Part shown: positions 7,533-16,732 of the stretch, piece after piece | Numbering within the stretch: position 1 is the stretch's first letter | Layout of the letters: each line of letters begins with the position of its first letter | The notes under the pieces: model-generated | The model's input: only the letters and a program-made list of their open reading frames with translations | What the model was told of the DNA's origin: nothing | The model's database searches: none | Virus record (IMG/VR): IMGVR_UViG_3300030060_005321 | Location: 37,822 to 63,755 of that record | DNA length: 25,934 bases | Direction: 5' to 3' (one strand) | DNA from: a virus | Program-made: the position numbers and the translations under genes

Positions 7533-7795
7533 AAGTTTTCTATTATTTTTTCTAATTTTTTAATGTGCTTGTTTATTAAATGGCATTTTTCATATTCTTC
7601 TCTATCTTGATACAGATTTAATAGTGTCATTAGCCTAGCTAACTCACCGACAGCGTGATCATCATCTCTGTCTGCGTACCACATCATATCGTTATTTTCA
7701 GATGCAGGATTTGCAATACCATAAATTCTTTTAGTAAGATCTGAAGCTATATATTTAGCTAGCTTTTGCATTTGTTCATCGTTCATATTATCCAT
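7529..7795 (-). CDS. Small acidic hypothetical protein, up to 88 aa (start uncertain)
   Basis: The longest ATG frame gives 88 aa, acidic and helical, with a charged C-terminal helix. The first ATG (7795) lies inside the GGATAATA box of promoter-like element A (7786-7816). If that element is the promoter, transcripts from it start near 7780 and only the in-frame ATG at 7771 (80 aa) would have a leader. Read-through from upstream could still use 7795. It is coupled to the ligase gene by a TGA/ATG overlap. No family is recognised. Confidence 0.75.
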   Translation of the reverse strand: MDNMNDEQMQKLAKYIASDLTKRIYGIANPASENNDMMWYADRDDDHAVGELARLMTLLNLYQDREEYEKCHLINKHIKKLEKIIENL

Positions 7796-7816
7796 CAGAG
7801 TTCGTATTTAGTTTGT
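7786..7816 (-). promoter_or_regulatory. Promoter-like element A
   Basis: On the minus strand: ACAAACTAAATACG, 9-bp spacer, GGATAATA. This copy matches the shared consensus at every position. If GATAAT is the -10 hexamer, CAAACT stands at -35 with a 17-bp spacer. It lies in the 3' end of the upstream gene and points into the ligase-HTH-sigma-recombination-replication operon. Confidence 0.7.
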
Positions 7817-8249
7817 ATTTAAATATAAGATTACTTGCTTGGCCTACGAATATACAGTGTTCAGTAGTAGTGTGGTCGTATCTAAATATACTAATCCATA
7901 TCTCACCTTTACCCCACCATAAATAATATGTGTAGTCAAGATCACCGTGTTCATCGCCTGGTGTTTCTAGGTACACATTATGTGAATCGTTACTACATTT
8001 ACCGTAATGCACACCCATTTTTAAGTGTGTTAACAACTGTGCTGCAAAACAGTGTACGCCATTGTGTTTGTTACCTATATTATTAATAAAGTCTGCTAAC
8101 GCAATACCTAAAAAGTCAGGCGCACCATCATAGTGATGGTATATTTGGTGTGTAACTCTTGCTCTACCGCAGTCGTCATATAATTGAAAGTCACTAAACG
8201 ATACTCCATCTTCACGTTTAGCAAAACATATTAATGCTCTAGTTGCCAT
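7788..8249 (-). CDS. Hypothetical protein, 153 aa
   Basis: The chosen start (8249, ATG GCA ACT) overlaps the stop of the upstream gene by 11 bases; an earlier frame-open region adds 25 residues but would overlap that gene deeply. The protein is rich in His, Tyr and Trp (for example THQIYHHYDG, and a WWGKGEIWIS strand), soluble, with a single compact domain judged by length. It resembles small proteins often found in marine phage accessory regions, but no family is recognised. Its last residues (KLNTNSDG) are encoded by promoter-like element A, whose GGATAA supplies the stop codon. Confidence 0.8.
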   Translation of the reverse strand: MATRALICFAKREDGVSFSDFQLYDDCGRARVTHQIYHHYDGAPDFLGIALADFINNIGNKHNGVHCFAAQLLTHLKMGVHYGKCSNDSHNVYLETPGDEHGDLDYTYYLWWGKGEIWISIFRYDHTTTEHCIFVGQASNLIFKYKLNTNSDG

Positions 8250-8511
8250 TGTTTCTTTTATAACTGTTATAATTTTCTGTAAATAATTCTCGTAAACCTC
8301 TGCCGCTACGCGTATGAAAGCCATAGCTATGAGTTGCTAGCGTTGGTATTGGTTTGTCTGCTAGCATAAATTCAACAACTTGCTCAGCTGTTGTACTACT
8401 ACTATATAGGTATGCAACTTCACTAGCCGCATGAGATATAGCATCTACATCGTGCATTGGCTCACGGCTAAACTCTTCTTTAATATATTTTTCTACTTCT
8501 TCTCCTGTCAT
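8239..8511 (-). CDS. Hypothetical protein, 90 aa
   Basis: A 90-aa frame from the ATG at 8511 begins two bases after the stop of a 26-aa membrane peptide gene. The N-terminus is acidic and helical; the C-terminus is Gly/Arg-rich (SGRGLRE). No family, cysteine motif or membrane segment is visible. It belongs to the run of small genes read from promoter-like element B at 9420-9450. Confidence 0.75.
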   Translation of the reverse strand: MTGEEVEKYIKEEFSREPMHDVDAISHAASEVAYLYSSSTTAEQVVEFMLADKPIPTLATHSYGFHTRSGRGLRELFTENYNSYKRNNGN

Positions 8512-8512
8512 A

Positions 8513-8593
8513 TTATTCTTTATATTTATTGTTTTTCTCGTGATATAATTCTAGTATAGCCCATACAGCTAGTGCTATTAATGCTATCTTCAT
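8513..8593 (-). CDS. 26-aa membrane microprotein
   Basis: A 26-aa frame starts in an ATGA overlap with the stop of the 35-aa gene upstream. Residues 3-16 are a continuous hydrophobic stretch (IALIALAVWAIL) and the tail is charged (EKNNKYKE), so it would be a single-span membrane peptide with a cytoplasmic or periplasmic charged end. Tight coupling supports its being real; function unknown. Confidence 0.5.
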   Translation of the reverse strand: MKIALIALAVWAILELYHEKNNKYKE

Positions 8594-8697
8594 CTTCGTT
8601 TTTTATTTGAAAGTTCATTTAATTTATCTAATAGCTTAATTGCTATGTCTACAGATATTTCTTCTGCATAGTACATGTCATATATTAATCTTCGCAT
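8590..8697 (-). CDS. Small hypothetical protein, 35 aa
   Basis: A 35-aa frame (ATG at 8697) overlaps the preceding 36-aa gene by 13 bases and the following 26-aa gene by 4. It is helical with a basic end (SNKKRR). The chain of overlaps through three tiny frames that together fill a 275-base gap supports coding. No function is suggested. Confidence 0.45.
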   Translation of the reverse strand: MRRLIYDMYYAEEISVDIAIKLLDKLNELSNKKRR

Positions 8698-8795
8698 AAC
8701 TCATATAGTTCTGCTAGTGTCATATCATCTATTTGTTCATCTGAGTACCCTAACTCCTTGAGTTTAGGCCTCATAATTTCCCATGGACTATTCAT
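8685..8795 (-). CDS. Small acidic hypothetical protein, 36 aa
   Basis: A 36-aa frame (ATG at 8795) overlaps the end of the 78-aa gene by eight bases. The sequence is acidic with a helical pattern resembling a small protein-interaction helix pair (SDEQIDDMTLAELYELCED). No family is recognised. Confidence 0.5.
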   Translation of the reverse strand: MNSPWEIMRPKLKELGYSDEQIDDMTLAELYELCED

Positions 8796-9024
8796 CTGCG
8801 ATAAGGAATTTTTCACCATAAGACCAGTCGTAACTAGACAAGCTAGCTAAAGCGGCATCTGTGAAGTAAACAAGATCTCTTGCTTGGCCAATTGATAAGT
8901 GTGACCATAAATAATTTTCTTTCAACGCTATTTTAACACCTTTAACTAATGAAGGGTATTTTTCTTCTTGGTCGTTTAGCGCTTGTTTAATCTCTGGTTT
9001 GAGTTTATCATACAGTGTATTCAT
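8788..9024 (-). CDS. Hypothetical protein, 78 aa
   Basis: The start is placed at the ATG at 9024, just after the TAA of the upstream coiled-coil gene; a longer frame would run back into that gene. The protein is mainly helical with several aromatic residues (YLWSH, YDWSYGEKF). No family is recognised. Confidence 0.75.
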   Translation of the reverse strand: MNTLYDKLKPEIKQALNDQEEKYPSLVKGVKIALKENYLWSHLSIGQARDLVYFTDAALASLSSYDWSYGEKFLIADE

Positions 9025-9025
9025 A

Positions 9026-9394
9026 TTAGTCTTGGTTTTCTTGGTTATTATCTTCAGCTTCAGCAAATAGCTCTGATATGTAGTTATATATCTCGCGACC
9101 TAAATCATCAGCATTGTCAAAGTCAAACGACTCACAATGTACTCTGCCATCGTAGTCAATACCGTAGTCAATACTGTAGTTGTCGGTGTCGCTGAAGTCC
9201 CATTGACCGATAGCTTCTTCAATAGCATCACGTAGCTCATCGAACTGTAATGGTGTAAGCTTTGGTTTGTTTATGTCTTTTAATTGTTTTTCTAAGTCTC
9301 TTATTTGACTCGCATAAGATGCTTGCTCGTTTGCTTTTTCATCAAGCAATTTTTGTAAAGCTTCTAACTTTACTTCTAATTCTACTTTATTCAT
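9026..9394 (-). CDS. Coiled-coil acidic protein, 122 aa
   Basis: Residues 1-42 form a heptad-rich coiled coil (LEVKLEALQKLLDEK onward). The rest is strongly acidic (long runs of Asp and Glu, C-terminus EDNNQENQD). Acidic phage proteins can mimic DNA or bind host DNA-binding proteins, but nothing specific is visible. It is the first gene after promoter-like element B, with its ATG 26 bases from the -10 box. Confidence 0.75.
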   Translation of the reverse strand: MNKVELEVKLEALQKLLDEKANEQASYASQIRDLEKQLKDINKPKLTPLQFDELRDAIEEAIGQWDFSDTDNYSIDYGIDYDGRVHCESFDFDNADDLGREIYNYISELFAEAEDNNQENQD

Positions 9395-9419
9395 AATGGT
9401 TTATTTAATTGGTTTATAA

Positions 9420-9450
9420 TATTATCCGTCTTTATTCGTATTTAGTTTGT
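9420..9450 (-). promoter_or_regulatory. Promoter-like element B
   Basis: Perfect match to ACAAACTAAATACG, 9 bp, GGATAATA on the minus strand. The ATG of the next gene is 26 bases beyond the -10 box, leaving a leader of roughly 20 nt. The element overlaps the 3' end of a 42-aa gene, and its GGATAA provides that gene's stop. Confidence 0.72.
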
Positions 9451-9550
9451 GTTTCTTTTTACGAGTATATTTTTTTTTATTACGCTCTATGTTAGGCTTA
9501 CTAGCGTCCCATATAGCTTTTAATGTTTCTTTATCTAACTTTACTTTCAT
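9422..9550 (-). CDS. Small Lys-rich protein, 42 aa
   Basis: A 42-aa frame starts at the ATG at 9550, overlapping the TAA of the upstream 179-aa gene (TAATG). It is very basic (KKKYTRKKKHK at 26-36). Its C-terminus KLNTNKDG is encoded by promoter-like element B, almost identical to the C-terminus of the 153-aa protein at 7788-8249, because both genes end inside copies of the same motif. Possible nucleic-acid binder; function unknown. Confidence 0.6.
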   Translation of the reverse strand: MKVKLDKETLKAIWDASKPNIERNKKKYTRKKKHKLNTNKDG

Positions 9551-10089
9551 TAAAATCCTTCGTTTGAAGCTTCAGATAAATTGTATCTATGCCCGTTAAT
9601 AATTAGTTGTATATCGTCTTCTGGCGAAGAGTCTGGGTGTACAATATCGCCAAATGGTAACCTATTATTAGGATTATTGTTATAATCTCTTAAATAAGCT
9701 TCTTTTAAACACTTAATAACATAGTCATTTATTAAGTATGTAGGCTTTTGATAGTAATTTTTTAGTATAAAATTAGCTAAGTATACTAATCGCTCATCGT
9801 AATTAGGTATAAGTATACGCTCTTTGCTTATACCATATTTTGCTACTATTGATCTAGTTTTGTTAATTTGATAAGCACTATGGTTGTATTCACTTACGTT
9901 ACGCACGTAACCTGTTCTATAACAAGCAAAGCGTAAAGGTTTTGGTGTACACGTCTGCCACATTTGGTGTATAGGTAGCTCGTATACTTGTGTACCATTT
10001 TTCTTCTGTCGTCTTGTTGAGACGTTTTTAATACCGAGCATATCAAAAACTTGTAATGCTTCAGTTGCTGTTGTTACTTTATATTTCAT
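9550..10089 (-). CDS. Hypothetical protein, 179 aa
   Basis: The 179-aa protein is basic and Tyr/Asn-rich, with an N-terminal helix (residues 1-20), a segment with two cysteines in the first third (TCTPKPLRFACYR) and an Asp/Pro-rich region near the C-terminus. It could be a small DNA-binding protein, but no family is recognised. It follows the structured-RNA region directly, with a 20-base A/T leader. Confidence 0.75.
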   Translation of the reverse strand: MKYKVTTATEALQVFDMLGIKNVSTRRQKKNGTQVYELPIHQMWQTCTPKPLRFACYRTGYVRNVSEYNHSAYQINKTRSIVAKYGISKERILIPNYDERLVYLANFILKNYYQKPTYLINDYVIKCLKEAYLRDYNNNPNNRLPFGDIVHPDSSPEDDIQLIINGHRYNLSEASNEGF

Positions 10090-10108
10090 AATTCAATTTT
10101 AATGTTAG

Positions 10109-10195
10109 TAGCTAGTGAGGAATCGAACCTCAAACTCGTCAGTTGTACCTTCTGGTGAACTCGAATAAGCTCTACCGTACTCCTATACCTAGCTT
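10109..10195 (-). ncRNA. tRNA-like element (acceptor stem plus T-arm, non-canonical core)
   Basis: On the minus strand an 87-base unit has a clear T-arm (10116-10132, TGAGG / TTCGATT / CCTCA) and an acceptor-like stem made by AGCTAG and CTAGCT (10189-10194 with 10110-10115), separated by 56 bases as in a long-variable-arm tRNA. GGTAGAGC in the 5' half recalls a D-loop. A normal D-stem and anticodon stem could not be fitted, the first acceptor pair is A-A, and no CCA is encoded (CTA follows). It may be a degenerate tRNA or the 3' domain of a larger structured RNA. Confidence 0.35.
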
Positions 10196-10199
10196 GTTT

Positions 10200-10350
10200 A
10201 AAAACGAGGTGGCCAAGTGAGTAAGATACCTTTGCTTACGCCGGGGTTACACACCTCACGCGCCACGCTCGTATACCGGCGTCAGGTGGTAGAACTTATC
10301 GCCTACACTTCGGCTCCCACATCACTTCTGATGTTTCGCTTATTGTTAAA
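10200..10350 (-). ncRNA. GC-rich candidate structured RNA
   Basis: This gene-free stretch is clearly richer in G+C than its surroundings and full of complementary segments. On the minus strand: a 6-bp hairpin ACATCA-GAAG-TGATGT (10319-10334), a 7-bp pairing ACGCCGG/CCGGCGT (10276-10282 with 10238-10244), CACCT/AGGTG (10284-10288 with 10252-10256) that interleaves with it in pseudoknot order, and GTAAG/CTTAC (10235-10239 with 10221-10225), which competes for two bases. It leads directly into the tRNA-like element. No known RNA family is recognised. Confidence 0.35.
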
Positions 10351-10361
10351 CCTGACTAGTA

Positions 10362-10574
10362 TTATCTAAGACAAGTACCGTAACCTTTACGTCTACCTGC
10401 CTTAGCAACTGCATCTGCTACTGCTTGTGATACAATTTGTATTGTGTTACCTGTTTTGTGATTAGTAATAGGTGCCGATGCGACACGCTCTACATTACTA
10501 CATTTTACACATGTTTTGTACCCGTATTTTTGTCTAACTGGGTGTACGGGCTCACCACATTTACAGTAACTCAT
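10362..10574 (-). CDS. Zinc-ribbon protein, 70 aa
   Basis: The N-terminus carries C4-x-C6 and C22-x2-C25, spaced like a zinc ribbon. This recalls the C4 zinc fingers of DksA/TraR-type proteins, but the rest does not look like that family. The C-terminus is basic (KAGRRKGYG). Probably a small zinc-binding nucleic-acid or RNA-polymerase-interacting protein. It lies 37 bases downstream of promoter-like element C. Confidence 0.7.
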   Translation of the reverse strand: MSYCKCGEPVHPVRQKYGYKTCVKCSNVERVASAPITNHKTGNTIQIVSQAVADAVAKAGRRKGYGTCLR

Positions 10575-10610
10575 ATTATTTAATTTTATTTAATAAGCTT
10601 TTGTCATATA

Positions 10611-10641
10611 TATTATCCAATAGTAATCGTATTTAATTTGT
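10611..10641 (-). promoter_or_regulatory. Promoter-like element C
   Basis: Minus strand ACAAATTAAATACG, 9 bp, GGATAATA: one mismatch to the consensus (T for C). It precedes the zinc-ribbon gene by 37 bases and would also drive the structured-RNA region beyond it. Confidence 0.7.
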
Positions 10642-10745
10642 TAAAATACAAAGCCTTCGGTAAGTACATTAAAAACTACTAAAATCGCGACTACAATAGG
10701 AACACCTATCATTACTAAGTCTGTATGTGAAAATTTTCTATTCAT
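10641..10745 (-). CDS. 34-aa membrane microprotein
   Basis: A 34-aa frame (ATG at 10745) with a polar N-terminus (NRKFSHTD) and one hydrophobic span at about 11-27 (VMIGVPIVVAILVVFNV). It ends at the first base of promoter-like element C. Likely a single-pass inner-membrane peptide; function unknown. Confidence 0.55.
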   Translation of the reverse strand: MNRKFSHTDLVMIGVPIVVAILVVFNVLTEGFVF

Positions 10746-10762
10746 GTTATTTAATTTAATTA

Positions 10763-11242
10763 TTAGTAAACTTCTTTTAATTGTAACTCAAAGATTTGAC
10801 CATCACCGTTCTCTACAAAGAACTGAGCTTTATACATATTTTCATGTAATAAGTACACGGCTAAGTCGTCATGACCTGAAAGTTGCATGTTGATATTTCC
10901 TTCAATTATACCTTGTGATAATTTACTCACTTGGTCTTTTAGGTTTTGAAAACCTTTTACTTTTCTGCCATCGAGTATAGCATAGAACTCATACTCATCG
11001 TAGCGAACGTCGTTAATACCCGGCAGGTTTGCTACGTTTATACACATAGCAACGCCAAAGTCAACTACAAAACTAGTATCATTACCAGTACAAGTTGACA
11101 CTGCGTAAGTGCTTACACTGTTATCGCTCATTATTTTTACATGAGTATCTCTGTCAAACTGAACATCATAGTCAGTTTTTTCGCAAGATGTTAACGCAAG
11201 AGTAGCTGCTACTGCTGACGCTATAAATTTACTTTTTATCAT
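10763..11242 (-). CDS. Phage-encoded lipoprotein, 159 aa
   Basis: The N-terminus is a lipoprotein signal: basic MIKSK, a hydrophobic core (6-17) and the lipobox LTSC ending at Cys20, so the mature protein would be a lipid-anchored protein starting CEKTDYD. The mature part is beta-rich, with two further cysteines about 15 residues apart and no known domain. Phage lipoproteins in other systems (T5 Llp is the model) block receptors against superinfection; that role is a hypothesis here. It follows a 24-aa membrane peptide gene with a 14-base overlap. Confidence 0.8.
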   Translation of the reverse strand: MIKSKFIASAVAATLALTSCEKTDYDVQFDRDTHVKIMSDNSVSTYAVSTCTGNDTSFVVDFGVAMCINVANLPGINDVRYDEYEFYAILDGRKVKGFQNLKDQVSKLSQGIIEGNINMQLSGHDDLAVYLLHENMYKAQFFVENGDGQIFELQLKEVY

Positions 11243-11303
11243 ATCTATATATTATATTTCCTAAGTACCAACAGGCAAATATCACCCATGTCCACTCAAA
11301 CAT
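11229..11303 (-). CDS. 24-aa Trp-rich membrane microprotein
   Basis: A 24-aa frame starts in a TAATG overlap with the stop of the 68-aa gene and overlaps the lipoprotein start by 14 bases. The core is strongly hydrophobic and aromatic (WTWVIFACWYLGNII) with a basic end. The double overlap supports a coupled translational cascade; the lipoprotein may depend on it for translation. Confidence 0.5.
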   Translation of the reverse strand: MFEWTWVIFACWYLGNIIYRYDKK

Positions 11304-11509
11304 TAGTAGTACTTATTTGATTCATCTTCTTCGTATTTATCTATCATTGCCTGCTCGGCCTCTAACTCACTTAACCACTCACCAGTGTACTTGTTTTTGT
11401 AATATTCACCACATACAGACACTATCGCGTCATGGTTATGAGTTACTTCTACTGTATTATCGTCACTTACCTTGTAAGTTTTACCGATATTTTTAAATGT
11501 AAATGTCAT
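11303..11509 (-). CDS. Hypothetical protein, 68 aa
   Basis: The start is set at the ATG at 11509, two bases after the upstream stop; the longer frame runs back through the neighbouring gene. The product is short and acidic toward the C-terminus (YEEDES), with a beta-rich first half. No family is recognised. Confidence 0.7.
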   Translation of the reverse strand: MTFTFKNIGKTYKVSDDNTVEVTHNHDAIVSVCGEYYKNKYTGEWLSELEAEQAMIDKYEEDESNKYY

Positions 11510-11510
11510 A

Positions 11511-11702
11511 TTATTTACTGTATTTATCGTATAAGTTGTTCGCCTCGGTGTAATAACCACCATCTTTCAACTCTAACATTATTTTAGTTATTAATTCAAA
11601 TGACTTTCTACCTTGTTTGTAGTATCTGTTATCGTCACTCATCATATAGTACCAGTCGTGACTGACTAGTAGTGCCTCTAGTTCTTTTAATTTTATATTC
11701 AT
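11511..11702 (-). CDS. Small hypothetical protein, 63 aa (start uncertain)
   Basis: The frame is open to an ATG at 11720, but that ATG lies inside the -10 box of promoter-like element D, so the ATG at 11702 is preferred; a transcript from D would then have almost no leader. The protein is helical and Tyr-rich (WYYMMSDDNRYYK). No family is recognised. Confidence 0.65.
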   Translation of the reverse strand: MNIKLKELEALLVSHDWYYMMSDDNRYYKQGRKSFELITKIMLELKDGGYYTEANNLYDKYSK

Positions 11703-11710
11703 ATCATTTA

Positions 11711-11741
11711 TATTATCCATTAGTAATCGTATTTATTTTGT
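11711..11741 (-). promoter_or_regulatory. Promoter-like element D
   Basis: Minus strand ACAAAATAAATACG, 9 bp, GGATAATA: one mismatch (A for C). It overlaps the stop codon of the 37-aa gene and points into the 63-aa, 68-aa, 24-aa and lipoprotein genes. Confidence 0.68.
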
Positions 11742-11846
11742 TAACATAGTTAATTCTTCAAACTCATCTTGAGTAATTAAACCTTCTAGTAAACCGATGA
11801 CGTACTTAGTTACGTCTTCACCTGTAATTTTATTTATCATTTTCAT
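11733..11846 (-). CDS. Small acidic protein, 37 aa
   Basis: A 37-aa frame (ATG at 11846) with the helical, acidic pattern ITGEDVTKYVIGLLEG then TQDEFEEL. Such a pattern recalls very small interaction proteins rather than enzymes. It lies just beyond the T-arm-like hairpin at 11862-11902. No family is recognised. Confidence 0.5.
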   Translation of the reverse strand: MKMINKITGEDVTKYVIGLLEGLITQDEFEELTMLTK

Positions 11847-11861
11847 ATCTATATATTTTAG

Positions 11862-11902
11862 TAGTGTGGGTGGAATCGAACCACCGTTAACCTTTCACAC
11901 TT
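11862..11902 (-). other. tRNA-like minihelix (T-arm on an acceptor-like stem)
   Basis: On the minus strand AGTGTG (11896-11901) pairs with CACACT (11863-11868) around a 10-base linker and a T-arm GGTGG-TTCGATT-CCACC (11869-11885). The eleven bases GGTTCGATTCC are identical to those in the element at 10116-10132. D and anticodon arms are absent. It directly follows, and slightly overlaps, the stop codon of the 75-aa paralog gene, so it may act as a 3'-end structure or processing signal. Confidence 0.4.
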
Positions 11903-12128
11903 AGTCTACTTGACACTCTCGTGCCCAGGTAGGAATATTGTTGGAGTTAGTATAATTACCATACTTTTGGAAACACTCCATAGTTTCTAGTTTCTCTTGA
12001 TTTAAAGAGTAAACACCATCGTGGTCATACTTAATTGTATCACCTTTTTTGTTAGTAAACTGAACTACTAGTTCTTTACCAATCATACCTTTTGAGACTA
12101 CAAATCTCTTTTTTTCTACTACATTCAT
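11901..12128 (-). CDS. Hypothetical protein, 75 aa, paralog of the 13169-13399 product
   Basis: The product shares its whole length with the 76-aa protein encoded at 13169-13399: KKRFV-SK at the start, FTNKK and YDHD in the middle, and the nearly invariant ECFQKYGNYTNSNN near the end. Predicted to be a small beta-rich single domain with one to two cysteines. Phage early regions often carry such duplicated small host-takeover proteins, but no function can be read from the sequence. A T-arm-like hairpin sits at its stop codon. Confidence 0.75.
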   Translation of the reverse strand: MNVVEKKRFVVSKGMIGKELVVQFTNKKGDTIKYDHDGVYSLNQEKLETMECFQKYGNYTNSNNIPTWARECQVD

Positions 12129-12140
12129 AATTTCTAATTT

Positions 12141-12269
12141 TTAATTGTTTAATAAATAGGTTATATCATCTAGAGTTGTTTCTAAATATTTCTCTCTACA
12201 CTCATTATTATTATATTTAAATATATTCTTTAATAATAATTCTAATAATTTAATTTTTAATTTTTCCAT
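12141..12269 (-). CDS. Small hypothetical protein, 42 aa
   Basis: A 42-aa frame (ATG at 12269) lying 27 bases from the -10 box of promoter-like element E, the same leader length as at elements B and F. It is Lys/Leu/Asn-rich and helical with one cysteine. The conserved promoter-to-ATG spacing is the best support for coding. Confidence 0.55.
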   Translation of the reverse strand: MEKLKIKLLELLLKNIFKYNNNECREKYLETTLDDITYLLNN

Positions 12270-12295
12270 TTTATTTTATTTAATAAGTTCATCTA

Positions 12296-12326
12296 TATTA
12301 TCCAATACTGTTCGTTTTTAGTTTGT
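12296..12326 (-). promoter_or_regulatory. Promoter-like element E
   Basis: Minus strand ACAAACTAAAAACG, 9 bp, GGATAATA: one mismatch (A for T). The next ATG is 27 bases beyond the -10 box; the upstream 43-aa gene ends within it. Confidence 0.7.
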
Positions 12327-12429
12327 ACACTCTAAGTTTATTTCTGTAGTGAATATACATGTCTCTATCAAAAGACTTGTAGTAATTCATTTGTGTTTCT
12401 AAGTAGTCTATAAAATCTTTTGTATTCAT
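12298..12429 (-). CDS. Small basic Tyr-rich protein, 43 aa
   Basis: A 43-aa frame (ATG at 12429), helical and rich in Tyr, Lys and Arg. Its last eight residues (KLKTNSIG) and stop codon are formed by promoter-like element E, the third case of a gene ending inside this motif. No family is recognised. Confidence 0.5.
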   Translation of the reverse strand: MNTKDFIDYLETQMNYYKSFDRDMYIHYRNKLRVYKLKTNSIG

Positions 12430-12434
12430 AAGTA

Positions 12435-12584
12435 TTAGTATTTATCAATTAGTAAGTTTAGTTCATCAAATAGTTCAGAGTATTCTGAGTCATAAATATC
12501 ATCAAGTGTATAAGTTACATTGTTGATAGTTATTTCATAGATGTCATTGTCTTCATCTATTTTAAAGGTGATATTTTTTAACAT
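12435..12584 (-). CDS. Small acidic protein, 49 aa
   Basis: The ATG at 12584 is chosen because it lies 27 bases from the -10 box of element F; the frame stays open upstream to a TTG inside the box, which is unlikely as a start. The product is very acidic (clusters of Asp and Glu) with alternating beta-like hydrophobics. It ends six bases before the 43-aa gene. No family is recognised. Confidence 0.6.
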   Translation of the reverse strand: MLKNITFKIDEDNDIYEITINNVTYTLDDIYDSEYSELFDELNLLIDKY

Positions 12585-12610
12585 AGTATTATTTTTATTA
12601 AGTTCATTTA

Positions 12611-12641
12611 TATTATCCAACAAGTACAGTATTTAGTTTGT
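12611..12641 (-). promoter_or_regulatory. Promoter-like element F
   Basis: Minus strand ACAAACTAAATACT, 9 bp, GGATAATA: one mismatch at the last base of the upstream block. The 49-aa gene follows with a leader matching those after elements B and E. Confidence 0.7.
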
Positions 12642-12865
12642 TATCTTTTTAATTTATAATTTAAATCTTTGTTTAAAGTATGAGTATCAATATTATAAGA
12701 TTTTAAAGAATTGATATTTATATAAGTATAACCTTTTAAATTAAATTGTTCTGATAAAGATATTTCATTATAGTACTTTGGAAGTTGGTGTAATTGAAAT
12801 GGAATATAAGTTTGATTATTTAATTTAATTATATTTGTTGAAGAATTATTTTTTATAGTTTTCAA
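12641..12865 (-). CDS. Hypothetical protein, 74 aa, possible TTG start
   Basis: An open frame with protein-like composition (Asn, Leu, Tyr, Lys) contains no internal ATG; the first usable start is TTG at 12865, about 80 bases beyond promoter-like element G. The A/T-rich sequence makes chance openness possible, so this is a tentative gene. It ends exactly where element F begins. Confidence 0.4.
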   Translation of the reverse strand: MKTIKNNSSTNIIKLNNQTYIPFQLHQLPKYYNEISLSEQFNLKGYTYININSLKSYNIDTHTLNKDLNYKLKR

Positions 12866-12945
12866 AATATTTATTTTTTTAAAGATTATTATTTATTTTT
12901 ATTTATTTAAAGAATTTAATTTATATTATTTATTAAACTCATATA

Positions 12946-12976
12946 TATTATCCAACTGACTCCATATTTAGTTTGT
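12946..12976 (-). promoter_or_regulatory. Promoter-like element G
   Basis: Minus strand ACAAACTAAATATG, 9 bp, GGATAATA: one mismatch near the end of the upstream block. It is followed by an 80-base very A/T-rich leader before the possible 74-aa gene. Confidence 0.66.
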
Positions 12977-13027
12977 ATAAAAGTATACATTTTGTTTAGT
13001 GAATAATAATTGTGTTGAGGTATACCA

Positions 13028-13111
13028 TCACCTCACTCTGTTTACAATTTGTTTTTCAATATATTGTAAAGTAATTCCAAGTATTATTAGTATTATTAAA
13101 TCATGTATCAT
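13028..13111 (-). CDS. 27-aa membrane microprotein
   Basis: A 27-aa frame (ATG at 13111) with a hydrophobic stretch at 4-14 (DLIILIILGIT) and a basic end (NRVR). Likely membrane-associated if expressed. It stands alone in the 300-base gap between the 76-aa gene and promoter-like element G, so support is weaker than for the coupled frames. Confidence 0.4.
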   Translation of the reverse strand: MIHDLIILIILGITLQYIEKQIVNRVR

Positions 13112-13160
13112 AATAGTGTGACATTAGGTAGTTAAGTAAAGTATAGTAGTGGGCAAGTGT

Positions 13161-13178
13161 CACAGTTTTTACACTGTG
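13161..13178 (-). terminator. Hairpin at the 3' end of the 76-aa paralog gene
   Basis: Minus strand CACAGT-GTAAAA-ACTGTG, a 6-bp stem overlapping the stop codon. No U-tract follows, so it is not a standard intrinsic terminator. It occupies the same position relative to its gene as the T-arm-like hairpin after the paralog at 11901-12128, and both are followed by a CACTACTA-type tail. Confidence 0.3.
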
Positions 13179-13399
13179 TACTCGCGACCAAATGTTGGAA
13201 CATTGTTACTATTTGTATAGTTACCATACTTCTGGAAACATTCCATTGATTCAAACTTTTCTTGATTTGCACTATACACCGCATCGTGATCATAAGTATA
13301 TGTTTCTTCTTTTTTATTAGTGAAAGTTATTAATACATTTTTTCCAATTAGTGATTTAGATATTACAAATCTTTTTTTAGTTAAAGTCTCTTGTGACAT
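13169..13399 (-). CDS. Hypothetical protein, 76 aa, paralog of the 11901-12128 product
   Basis: First gene of the leftward block, 39 bases beyond promoter-like element H. It is the duplicate of the 75-aa protein at 11901-12128, sharing KKRFV-SK, FTNKK, YDHD and ECFQKYGNYTNSNN, with divergence mainly in the strands at 20-35 and at the last residues (GREYTV versus ARECQVD). Being promoter-proximal, it would be among the first proteins made after infection. Function unknown. Confidence 0.78.
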   Translation of the reverse strand: MSQETLTKKRFVISKSLIGKNVLITFTNKKEETYTYDHDAVYSANQEKFESMECFQKYGNYTNSNNVPTFGREYTV

Positions 13400-13437
13400 A
13401 ATAGTTTAGTTTAAGTTATATATTTTATTTACATTAT

Positions 13438-13468
13438 TATTATCCAGATACTGTCGTAGTTAGTTTGT
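13438..13468 (-). promoter_or_regulatory. Promoter-like element H
   Basis: Minus strand ACAAACTAACTACG, 9 bp, GGATAATA: one mismatch (C for A). It is the rightmost copy and would start the leftward early transcription unit at the 76-aa gene. Confidence 0.7.
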
Positions 13469-13511
13469 AAAAAAAAACGTGAAACATTTACAAAAAACAG
13501 TTTCGATAGTT

Positions 13512-13544
13512 ACAAGAAGGAAACCGCATCGCGCGGATAATATA
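13512..13544 (+). promoter_or_regulatory. Possible plus-strand promoter with the shared -10 box
   Basis: GGATAATATA occurs on the plus strand at 13535-13544, preceded at the usual distance by ACAA and a partial match to the upstream block (about half the positions). A GC hairpin CCGC-ATCGC-GCGG lies just before the -10 box. It would direct transcription rightward into the virion module with a leader of about 170 nt. Weaker than the eight minus-strand copies. Confidence 0.35.
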
Positions 13545-13609
13545 CAAAACAAATATACGAAACGAAAAAACAAAGTGCGGGCTGGTGTGTAAAAAAGCGT
13601 TTTGCTTAT

Positions 13610-13635
13610 GGGGCGGGGCCACCTAGGGGGGTGGG
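13610..13635 (+). other. G-quadruplex-type motif
   Basis: Four G-runs on the plus strand (GGGG, GGGG, GGGGGG, GGG) are separated by loops of 1, 7 and 1 bases, fitting the standard G3+N1-7 pattern. An alternative hairpin CCACC/GGTGG uses part of the same bases. It stands out sharply in an A/T-rich genome and would lie in the 5' leader of the rightward transcript. Confidence 0.6.
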
Positions 13636-13717
13636 CTACACTTCACTCCAAAATTTATAATACTTTTTTTTATGTAATTACTATTGTATAACGTTATAAC
13701 TAAAAAAATATAAAACA

Positions 13718-14554
13718 ATGGCATTTAAAATGAAGAACCCATCTATGGCTAAGCTTACTAAAGCAGCAGGTGATAACCGCGCAGCTATGAAGATGAAGAA
13801 AGAAGCTGCAGCTAAAATGAAAAAAGAGTCTGCAATGAAAAAAGCACATGCTGACAAAGAGTCTATGGCTAAGCTAATGGACAAAGCATCGGCAATGAAG
13901 AAAGATGATAGATCTCTTTTGCAAAAAGCTAAAGATGAAGCTAAGCAATTAATACAAGGCGCTAAAGCAGCTGGAAGCGTGTTAGTTGACAAAGATTACT
14001 TCAGACCTAAAAAAGCAATTCAAGATGCTGTAAAAGCTTACAAAAAAGAAGAAAAAAAGCAAGAGGCAAAAAGAAAAGATAGTAAAAAATCAAAAACACT
14101 AGCCGCTACTAAAATGAAGAAAGAGTCTTCTATGAAGATGGGTCATAAGTCTGCTGCTAAGCTAAAAAAGCCTTCACCTGCTAAGCAAAAGATGAACATG
14201 GTAAAAGGTCCTGATGGCAAGATGGTCCCTGATTTTGCTGCAGATGGTAAAGGCGCAAACGATATGAAGTCTGGCGCTAAGATGAAAAAACCTATGAAGA
14301 TGAAAAAAGGTGAACCAATGAAAATGAAGAAAGGTGAGCCTATGAAGCTAAAAAAAAAAGATAGCGCGGTAAAAATGGTAAAAAGAGTGGATCCAAAAAT
14401 TAGTAAGGAGAAGCCAGAACCAAAACAAATGGCTAGACCACTGCCTAACAAAGGACGCGTAACGCCTAAGCCTAAACCTATAAAGCAAATTAAGGTAGCG
14501 AAGATGAAGCCTATGAAGCCAGTTAAAATGCCAAAGGTAACAGCAAGATTTTAA
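13718..14554 (+). CDS. Lys/Met/Ala-rich basic protein, 278 aa, MAFKMK family
   Basis: The first rightward gene encodes an extremely basic low-complexity protein. It starts MAFKMKNPSMAK, the same N-terminus as the 194-aa protein at 18182. Residues about 20-65 and 125-215 are built from repeated K-M-K-K units, including tandem PMKMKKGE copies; the C-terminus is Pro/Lys-rich. The composition recalls histone H1-like or protamine-like proteins, so it may condense DNA or pack with it in the head, but that is inference. No folded domain is visible except perhaps a helical segment at 60-120. A long A/T leader follows the G-rich island. Confidence 0.85.
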   Translation: MAFKMKNPSMAKLTKAAGDNRAAMKMKKEAAAKMKKESAMKKAHADKESMAKLMDKASAMKKDDRSLLQKAKDEAKQLIQGAKAAGSVLVDKDYFRPKKAIQDAVKAYKKEEKKQEAKRKDSKKSKTLAATKMKKESSMKMGHKSAAKLKKPSPAKQKMNMVKGPDGKMVPDFAADGKGANDMKSGAKMKKPMKMKKGEPMKMKKGEPMKLKKKDSAVKMVKRVDPKISKEKPEPKQMARPLPNKGRVTPKPKPIKQIKVAKMKPMKPVKMPKVTARF

Positions 14555-14913: not shown

Positions 14914-16488
14914 ATGGAGTACAACAATCCTAGTCTCCTGATCAAAGAATTAAACTTTGGTCAGGACGCTAAAACCAAAATTACAGCCGGTGTTACTAAA
15001 CTAGCTAATGCAGTTAAGCTAACTCTTGGCGCATCTGGTAAGTGTGTAGTGTATGAAGACGCTAGAGGCTTACCTGTTATAACGAAAGACGGTGTAACCG
15101 TTGCAGAAAGTGTAGTTCTTTACGATCCTGTTGAGAACATCGGCGCTACACTTATTAAAGAAGCTGCTAAAAACACAGTTAAAGAAGCCGGAGACGGCAC
15201 AACTACCGCAACTGTGCTAGCCGAGTCCTTGCTAAACACAGTAAACTCACCTAAATATAAGGGCTGCACCACTCGAGATCTGCGAGATGGTGTTTATTCT
15301 GGCCTAAAAAAGGTAAATGAGTACTTAAATTCCGTAAAAATAGACGTAAATGATGATATGTTGCAGCATGTAGCTGCTATTTCGTGCAATAATGACGTTA
15401 CTCTTGGTAATATCATTGCAGAAGCGTACCAAAAAGTTGGTAAAGACGGTGTAGTGCTTATGGAAGAGTCAGAAACTGAAGAAACTTACGTAGAAATAGT
15501 AGATGGTGTACAAGTAGACTGTGGTTTAACATCAACAAACTTTGTAACTAACAAAGATAAGCACAAGTGTGAGCTAGAAAACCCATTTATATTTATATGC
15601 ATGTCTGAAATACCTAATGTGCGTAAGATACAAAGTATATTAGAACATGCTATAAAAAATAACAGAGCGTTATTAATAGTAGCACCAGTAGCTCAGCCTG
15701 TTAAAGCTACACTTATGATGAACAAAGTAAAAGGTAACATTAAAGTTAATATCATTGACCCACCTGGCTTTGGCCCTACTAAAAAAGATACATGTGAAGA
15801 TCTTGCTATACTTACTGGCGCTACAGTTATGAACGAAGAATTAGGTGATGATTTAGATCTTATTAAGCCTGATTGTTTAGGTGAAGCTGAGCTTGCTACT
15901 ACAGATGACAAAACTACTGTAATAACTACAATAGAAGATTTAAATGAAGATATATCTGAGCGTATAGATCAGGTAGCTAAAATGGTTGCAGATGAAAAAA
16001 ATGGTTTCTTTAAAAAAAGATTGGAGCAGAGATTGTCTATGTTATCGGGTAGTGTTGGAATTATCCGTGTTGGGGCAGACTCGAAGGTGGAGCTTAAAGA
16101 AAAGAAAGACAGAATCGAGGATGCTATTTACGCTACGAAGGCTGCGTTGAAAGAAGGTATAGTACCTGGAGGTGGCGTAGCCCTCTTTAATGCATCTCAA
16201 AAAATTTCGACCGACACAGTCGGCGAAGAAGTGCTAGCTGAAGCTATAATAGCACCTATGGCTACTATACTTGACAATGCAGGTATAGATACTAACATGG
16301 ACATACCCGACAAAGATGGCGAAGGTATTAACGTTATAACCGGTGAGTTTGTTGACATGGTAGCAGAAGGTATCATAGATCCAGTACTTGTTACTAAAGC
16401 AGCACTTAAAAACGCAGTGAGTGTTGTTATGACTATTGTTTCTGCTGATTGTATAATCTCAAACGCTAGAGCAGATGAAGGCAGTTAA
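14914..16488 (+). CDS. groEL: Phage-encoded chaperonin GroEL
   Basis: The 524-aa protein aligns along its length with GroEL (548 aa in E. coli). ATP-binding and hydrolysis residues are kept: Asp59 in TKDGV (E. coli Asp52), GDGTTT at 93-98 (Asp87 region), Asp403 in IEDAIYAT (E. coli Asp398) and GGGVAL at 419-424. The apical region contains PPGFG and LAILTGATV. The GGM-rich C-terminal tail of host GroEL is missing. It probably folds large virion proteins, perhaps with its own co-chaperonin, whose gene overlaps its 3' end by 14 bases. An active double-ring enzyme is inferred from the intact residues; a distant N-terminus and shorter length mark it as phage-type rather than a recent host copy. 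Confidence 0.95.
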   Translation: MEYNNPSLLIKELNFGQDAKTKITAGVTKLANAVKLTLGASGKCVVYEDARGLPVITKDGVTVAESVVLYDPVENIGATLIKEAAKNTVKEAGDGTTTATVLAESLLNTVNSPKYKGCTTRDLRDGVYSGLKKVNEYLNSVKIDVNDDMLQHVAAISCNNDVTLGNIIAEAYQKVGKDGVVLMEESETEETYVEIVDGVQVDCGLTSTNFVTNKDKHKCELENPFIFICMSEIPNVRKIQSILEHAIKNNRALLIVAPVAQPVKATLMMNKVKGNIKVNIIDPPGFGPTKKDTCEDLAILTGATVMNEELGDDLDLIKPDCLGEAELATTDDKTTVITTIEDLNEDISERIDQVAKMVADEKNGFFKKRLEQRLSMLSGSVGIIRVGADSKVELKEKKDRIEDAIYATKAALKEGIVPGGGVALFNASQKISTDTVGEEVLAEAIIAPMATILDNAGIDTNMDIPDKDGEGINVITGEFVDMVAEGIIDPVLVTKAALKNAVSVVMTIVSADCIISNARADEGS

Positions 16489-16732
16489 TCATTACGTTAT
16501 TGTAGATAAAATAAAGACTGAGCAAAAAAAAGTTGCAGGTCTTATTATGACAGAAAACTTAGATGAAGACAACAGATATTTAAAAGGTAAAGTTATATCT
16601 GCTGGTAATTCAATAGAATTTATAAAAGACGGGGATGTAGTTTATTACGACAAACACGCTGGTCACGGTATACATTTTAAAGATAAACTTTATTTTGTTA
16701 TAAAGGCAAGTGATATTGTACTAGTAGATTAA
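16475..16732 (+). CDS. groES: Phage GroES-like co-chaperonin
   Basis: The 85-aa protein has the GroES layout: beta strand HYVIVDKI (6-13), a mobile loop (about 15-33) with the hydrophobic LIM (23-25) where GroES has IVL, then KGKVISAG, a DGDVVYYD strand and the C-terminal ASDIVLVD. It is slightly shorter than GroES (97 aa) and seems to lack part of the roof loop. The start overlaps GroEL by 14 bases in another frame, ensuring joint expression. It would cap the phage GroEL and possibly host GroEL. Confidence 0.88.
   Translation: MKAVNHYVIVDKIKTEQKKVAGLIMTENLDEDNRYLKGKVISAGNSIEFIKDGDVVYYDKHAGHGIHFKDKLYFVIKASDIVLVD

Follow-up and report, generated by a model that had tools for sequence, protein, structure and literature searches.

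A predicted promoter family that co-travels with a phage sigma factor in uncultured marine phages of Flavobacteria-type bacteria

What is served by a 31-bp sequence that recurs eight times, always on the same strand, among the small genes of an uncultured phage, and what reads it? The question is raised by the last 25.9 kb (positions 37822-63755) of the 63,755-bp IMG/VR record IMGVR_UViG_3300030060_005321, a stretch of 25,934 nt hereafter called the window. An initial annotation of the window had described eight minus-strand copies of a two-block motif, each with at most one mismatch and an exact 9-bp gap between the blocks, and had interpreted them as a promoter family with GATAAT as the -10 element. 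A pattern scan recovers all eight at the positions given there (Table 1). Copies A and B are perfect, C to H have one mismatch each and the length of the gap is invariant; the chance expectation for the motif is 0.00 (100 dinucleotide-preserving shuffles). The entire record contains only these eight copies which, using a weight matrix trained on other phages, score 35-45 bits, the rest of the genome never exceeding 5 bits. As described below, this signal and a sigma factor encoded in the same window co-occur across more than 100 related phages, none of them cultured, with probable marine hosts of Flavobacteria type; this sigma factor, acting with host core RNA polymerase, is the probable reader of the motif.

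The repeated motif and its promoter geometry

Alignment of 434-440 distinct sites yields the logo TTACAAACTAAATACGA-N7-TGGATAATATAAATR, which over 434-660 sites may be written TTACAAACTAAATACGA-N7-T(N)GATAATATAAATR. TT precedes the upstream block, and the gap opens with A in 96% and closes with T in 72% of sites. The gap described at the outset is thus constant in length but not wholly free: because its two ends are conserved it is really A-N7-T, with seven free bases. Positions 36 and 37 of the logo are mostly T and then a purine. Taking position 37 as +1 places GATAAT at -12 to -7, the canonical position of a -10 element; the upstream block then spans -36 to -22 and comprises 15 conserved bp, longer than a -35 box. 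Strong conservation covers around 37 bp overall. G at -12 is present in nearly 100% of the motif-first set, for which mismatches were tolerated anywhere in the pattern.

The sites run in the same direction as the genes. Among 665 sites in sigma-bearing loci, 84% are followed, no more than 40 nt from the predicted +1, by an ATG that opens a frame of 40 codons or more, compared to 24% of random positions in the same regions. The corresponding leader lengths peak mainly at 20-25 nt, with about one fifth shorter than 5 nt. Leaders of 26-27 nt had been reported for copies B, E and F; these values hold as distances from the end of the motif to the ATG, but measured from the predicted +1 the leaders become 20, 21 and 21 nt, respectively. 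Since the direction of the motif follows the genes, a start-site signature is conserved and an ATG lies close downstream, we read the eight copies as a predicted promoter family in which GATAAT is the -10 element, as originally proposed, with transcription predicted to start 7 nt downstream.

These same properties bear on a quite different reading, that of operators, or of sites for packaging or recombination, placed between gene cassettes. Conservation over some 37 bp does exceed that of many promoters, and cassettes might be exchanged more readily where repeats separate small, variable genes. However, the motif is not palindromic, its direction is fixed relative to the genes, its start-site signature and leader geometry are conserved, and one lineage (L244) shortens the spacer by a single base, as promoters can. 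We consider such a function highly improbable.

Readings at the coding level were likewise rejected. ATG or TTG precedes GATAAT in several copies, in frame with the gene in A, D and F, which might indicate a start codon or leader peptide; base -13 is, however, C, A or T in around half of the genomes, and the transcription start is predicted to lie downstream. Copies A, B and E overlap the final codons of the upstream gene (K-L-x-T-N-x-x-G-stop). Protein-level conservation of these ends (KLNTNxDG-stop) was also discarded: the overlap looks incidental since the other copies are non-coding in that frame.

Table 1. Motif copies and the genes for their proposed reader and its proposed partner, in window coordinates.
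Feature	Position	Strand	Mismatches	Score (bits)	Predicted +1	Leader (nt)	Downstream gene or ATG; remarks
Copy H	13438..13468	-	1	42.9	13432 (G)	33	gene 13169-13399
Copy G	12946..12976	-	1	36.0	12940 (G)		
Copy F	12611..12641	-	1	35.4	12605 (G)	21	ATG 12584
Copy E	12296..12326	-	1	39.2	12290 (G)	21	gene 12141-12269
Copy D	11711..11741	-	1	43.6	11705 (G)	3	first in-frame ATG 11702
Copy C	10611..10641	-	1	44.3	10605 (G)	31	gene 10362-10574
Copy B	9420..9450	-	0	43.0	9414 (A)	20	gene 9026-9394
Copy A	7786..7816	-	0	45.1	7780 (G)	9	first in-frame ATG 7771
Degenerate copy	13512..13542	+					ACAAGAAGGAAACC-N9-GGATAATA; faces rightward structural module; function uncertain
Helix-turn-helix protein, 206 aa	5923..6543	-					proposed partner; 4-bp overlap with sigma gene; weak HTH_11
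Phage sigma factor, 249 aa	5177..5926	-					proposed reader; Pfam Sigma70_r4; phrog_351 RNA polymerase sigma factor

The nearest ATG to copy G is distant, and this copy possibly serves a TTG-started gene at 12641-12865 in the list of open reading frames. The genes downstream of copy A include those for a ligase, a helix-turn-helix protein and the sigma factor. Copy H is followed first by a gene with a paralogue at 11901-12128 (minus strand), and a relative follows a motif copy in L168, pointing to a small protein family tied to this module. Also between the genes, at about 10110-10200 and 11860-11900 (minus strand), are sequences resembling the T-arm of transfer RNA (GGTTCGATTCC), in which ARAGORN detects no transfer RNA and Rfam has no match up to E 1.

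Co-occurrence with the sigma factor and dialects of the motif

The sigma factor had been named as a candidate reader. The best PDB match to the profile of its family is sigma-28 (E 7e-12, over most of its length), and Pfam Sigma70 regions 2 and 4 are found in 13 and 18, respectively, of 21 family members. A scan of related phage genomes, which the initial annotation had proposed, finds the motif conserved. Exact copies are present in IMG/VR in at least 119 stretches. Each of the 27 motif-bearing records searched in full contains 1-12 copies (none for a reversed-pattern control), all on one strand in 26 records and with a single opposite-strand copy in the remaining one. The sigma factor is encoded in 22 of 22 motif-bearing records tested and in none of four relatives without the motif; sigma gene, helix-turn-helix gene and motif are all absent from MW202828, elemoA, phi38:1 and Panino.

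As such co-occurrence could be an accident of clade membership, a second search started from the sigma factor. Loci were found by sigma homology alone, without use of the motif, and at least 6 kb of upstream sequence was required (n = 106). Sites lie upstream of the sigma gene in 104 of these loci, and 101 have three or more. In the first 80 sigma loci, 338 sites are upstream on the sigma strand, 21 downstream and one on the opposite strand. Four loci at first seemed to lack the motif. Three of them (L207, L232 and L244) carry several altered, recognisable copies, such as CACGA-N7-TTGATAATA in L207 and, with a spacer one base shorter, CGATAATA or CGATATTA in L244; the fourth, L237, has none.

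The motif also occurs in dialects. Across 107 genomes, scanned with GAT required at -12 to -10, base -13 may be G, A, C or T, yet the copies within a genome tend to agree (uniformity 0.876 vs 0.538 when shuffled). This fits a trans-acting reader from the same genome, with common descent of the copies contributing. Sigma residues 118, 122 and 125, located at the border of regions 2.4 and 3.0 by alignment with sigma-70, associate with C or T at -13 (p 2e-5, for residues picked after looking at the data). Residue 227, in the recognition helix of region 4.2, is Glu instead of Gln in 30 of 87 non-redundant genomes; Gln or Glu goes with T or A, respectively, at -30 (p 2e-6), and Glu also with loss of G at -23 (p 7e-4). 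Variation at -13 and at -30/-23 is therefore suggestively associated with the sigma regions 2.4/3.0 and 4.2, shared ancestry being the alternative: these targeted associations are strong when raw and underpowered once corrected for ancestry.

Some further observations concern individual records. One motif-bearing record (G006; L135, L156) has two matches to the sigma factor (73% and 63% identity), suggestive of either a second sigma gene or an assembly that is duplicated or mixed. In two others (L155/L157 and L153/L158) the sigma gene is split or contains stops or frameshifts, which may reflect sequencing error or decay. Isolated exact copies with good flanks are present in contigs of flavobacterial metagenome-assembled genomes (L163, L165, L166 and L167, from G028-G031) that lack the phage sigma; one copy is 70 bp from a contig end, the others are inside large contigs, and in two of the assembled genomes an isolated copy precedes a gene beginning MKTKITIATLLFGF.

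Candidate readers of the motif

Co-occurrence, the sigma-first search and the dialect association all favour the phage sigma factor, and we think it likely that, with host core RNA polymerase, it reads the motif promoters; as a whole this is the best explanation available. RNA would then start at each copy towards the small leftward genes, and read-through beyond these would reach the ligase, helix-turn-helix, sigma and replication genes. Sigma region 2 would read GATAATA at -12 to -6, with G at -12 where T is usual, and contribute to the choice of base -13, while region 4 would read ACAAACTAAAT at -36 to -26. The first RNA base would be the purine found 7 nt past GATAAT, and leaders would be short and A-rich, or absent. 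Since the promoters lie in the leftward half, where the small genes are followed by the ligase, sigma and replication genes, the switch would feed itself. A motif copy found 36-39 bp before the sigma ATG in eight relatives predicts a leaderless or near-leaderless, self-activating sigma mRNA there.

The 15 conserved bases of the upstream block exceed what sigma region 4 normally reads. A normal -35 box would end short of the conserved TACGA, which reaches down to -22; a partner protein is its probable reader, and the best candidate would be the helix-turn-helix protein encoded next to the sigma factor, by analogy with the partnership of gp33 and gp34 in phage SPO1. Its gene is directly upstream of the sigma gene in 150 of 160 sigma loci, with a median overlap of 4 bp. 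The helix-turn-helix is C-terminal in the protein. AlphaFold models the protein confidently (predicted local distance difference test score of 89); it has no PDB sequence match and no confident PDB fold match, the weak HTH_11 assignment being the only one obtained.

The upstream block could alternatively be bound, from -36 to -22, by the helix-turn-helix protein as a phage activator of host sigma-A holoenzyme, much as MotA acts as an activator at T4 middle promoters, with the phage sigma serving late promoters. The length of the block and a helix-turn-helix gene linked as tightly as that for sigma would both suit this arrangement, as would the fact that the structural module must use other promoters, none of which has been found. 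On the other hand, GATAATAT misfits the host -7 box TAnnTTTG, G at -12 is invariant, TACGA is kept in three of the 107 dialect genomes without a detected helix-turn-helix gene, and the dialects associate, though not exclusively, with DNA-contact regions of the phage sigma. Sigma-A with an activator is accordingly held to be unlikely. The flavobacterial host consensus TAnnTTTG lies at -12 to -5, and Flavobacterium psychrophilum has only sigma-A, sigma-54 and extracytoplasmic function (ECF) factors (PMC9723704). The motif had been described as distinct from that consensus, and the poor match of GATAATAT bears this out (PMC9723704). Flavobacterial sigma-A promoters do resemble it in the position of the -10/-7 region relative to +1 and in their A-rich leaders; their upstream block is unrelated.

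A third possible reader depends on the affinities of the phage. Its TerL and portal match those of MW202828 (Manatee Spring) at 63% and 51%, respectively; TerL matches elemo at 46% and portal matches phi38:1 (Pervagoviridae) at 37%, values that indicate relatedness to these phages. Matches to the two proteins also include Flavobacterium elemo phages, Maribacter phage Panino and Cellulophaga phi38:1, but no crAss-like phage. Within genome_contigs, copies of the motif turn up on contigs that bin with Flavobacteriaceae and in some cases look like phage, so that the host is likely to be a marine flavobacterium. The window additionally encodes a GroEL homologue (Pfam Cpn60) at 14914-16488 (plus strand), found in cultured relatives too, and downstream of it, in the GroES position, a small gene at 16475-16732 (plus strand).

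The initial annotation had also entertained a virion RNA polymerase, were the phage crAss-like. A polymerase of crAss-like or N4-like type, carried in the virion, would read the motif and transcribe the first genes. The promoters do occupy the place expected of first genes, that module shows no enrichment of host-type promoters, an unannotated virion-side protein of 2,914 aa is encoded in the genome, and first genes independent of host promoters would fit the precedent of crAss-like phi14:2, itself a phage of marine Flavobacteriia. Nevertheless, searches up to E 1 reveal no homologue of the phi14:2 virion polymerase, gp66, in this phage, in phi38:1 or in three relatives bearing the motif, and no open frame of 120 codons or more contains DFDxD. 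The 2,914-aa protein does have two DxDxD strings, but these are unlike the DFDID site of phi14:2; PDB, Pfam and PHROG yield no polymerase match, and the phi14:2 genome is without a single copy of the motif. With no crAss-like phage among the TerL and portal matches either, we regard a virion polymerase as very unlikely, and this part of the initial annotation is not supported.

Several points nonetheless weigh against the phage sigma factor as reader. All the phages compared are related, so that sigma and motif alike might simply mark the clade, and two loci (L237 and L277, the only such among the 106) have the sigma gene and no site. Residues 118, 122 and 125 were a post hoc choice; phylogenetically independent pairs number 2-3 concordant and essentially none discordant, too few for significance; and unfocused mutual information, even average-product corrected, is noisy and does not separate sigma from control proteins. 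Sigma must precede its own action, yet the scan for host-type promoters found no seed promoter. Finally, the known phage sigma factors of SPO1 (PMC3601020), phiEco32 and 7-11 (PMC8948821) serve middle and late genes, whereas here it is the structural module that lacks the motif.

Onset of transcription, known systems and significance

The genes behind the motif are presumed early from their position. In the leftward modules of sigma-bearing phages (1.13 Mb), host-type promoters are not enriched, with 50 matches compared to 43 for the reversed pattern and, near an ATG, 14 compared to 11. By contrast, a few host-type promoters do adjoin genes in the sigma-less elemoA and Panino, where numbers are small. 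First transcription might depend on an unrecognised seed promoter, on hosts that deviate from the known consensus or on sigma entering with the virion. A leftward module without host-type promoters would leave the first and last of these as sources of the sigma factor. A bolder proposal, which we offer as speculative and rather doubtful, is that the first genes run on the phage sigma from the outset, either from a virion-borne sigma, with or without the helix-turn-helix protein, or from an unrecognised seed promoter, the system then locking itself on.

Apart from the degenerate plus-strand copy, which most relatives do not keep, the structural module has no motif, and a de novo search of 40 upstream regions for a replacement gave only patterns resembling codon bias. 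The divergent region between the modules (13469-13718) has features of its own. A second conserved element, GGGGGCAACACTATACCCCTATATTTGTAATA, rich in G/C, occupies 13631-13662 (plus strand) and is located between the two modules in 27 of 29 relatives. In many relatives, though not in this phage, an inverted repeat (GTGACATTAGCC...GGCTATTGTCAC) is also present, with TGTAAGTATATA after it. The late promoters, an origin or a seed promoter may be situated here.

SPO1 (PMC3601020), phiEco32 and 7-11 (PMC8948821) already provide precedents for a phage sigma factor that has private promoters. The gp33-gp34 late promoters of SPO1, CGTTAGA(N17-19)GATATT (quoted in PMC3601020), share with the present motif a two-block structure, a -10 element beginning with G and a phage sigma beside a second phage protein, whose partner role here is a proposed one. 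They serve late genes whereas the present motif lies in a presumed early or middle module, and only the degenerate copy faces structural genes; their -35 block is unrelated to the 15-bp block. The promoters read by gp36 of phiEco32 (tAATGTAtA) and gp47 of phage 7-11 (GTAAtg-16-aCTA) are similarly private, multi-copy and served by a phage sigma of a podovirus, with starts 6-9 bp from the element and early genes opposite in direction to the structural genes (PMC8948821). They differ in consensus, and in that host sigma-70 serves the early genes and the phage sigma the middle and late ones, structural genes included (PMC8948821); a tblastn search with the sigma factor of the window retrieves no phage of phiEco32 or 7-11 type at E 1e-5. 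Sigma-28 is the first PDB match of the family profile, and bacterial sigma-28 (FliA) promoters, TAAAGTTT-n11-GCCGATAA (PMC2859248), have a CGATAA/GGATAA -10 element with G at -12. This G before ATA is common to sigma-28 and SPO1 gp34 promoters (GCCGATAA and GATATT), as it is to the motif. The -35 block and the spacing are different in sigma-28 promoters, and the likeness to the flagellar group is one of profile match.

The motif string was not found in the literature searched, which missed most subscription-journal papers, and the paper on isolation of Pervagoviridae mentions neither sigma nor promoters. Within that literature no description was found of this promoter class, its position in a presumed early module, its long upstream block or its dialects.

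If the phage sigma does recognise the motif, the two would make up the transcription switch in a group of marine phages that is widespread, uncultured and associated with hosts of Flavobacteriaceae type, and for which the literature searched yielded no promoter description of any kind. The dialects at -13 and -30 to -22, together with their matching sigma factors, would offer a ready natural experiment on the choice of bases by regions 2.4/3.0 and 4.2, and Bacteroidota, a group short of genetic tools, could gain from dialect pairs a set of promoters insulated from one another. In addition, the motif may serve as a cheap metagenome marker for these phages and for the start of their leftward gene module. 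Should the phage sigma prove to act from the outset, the system would parallel virion RNA polymerases with a sigma factor in their place, and this sigma and its promoter would have co-evolved into distinct dialects across a large group of marine phages.

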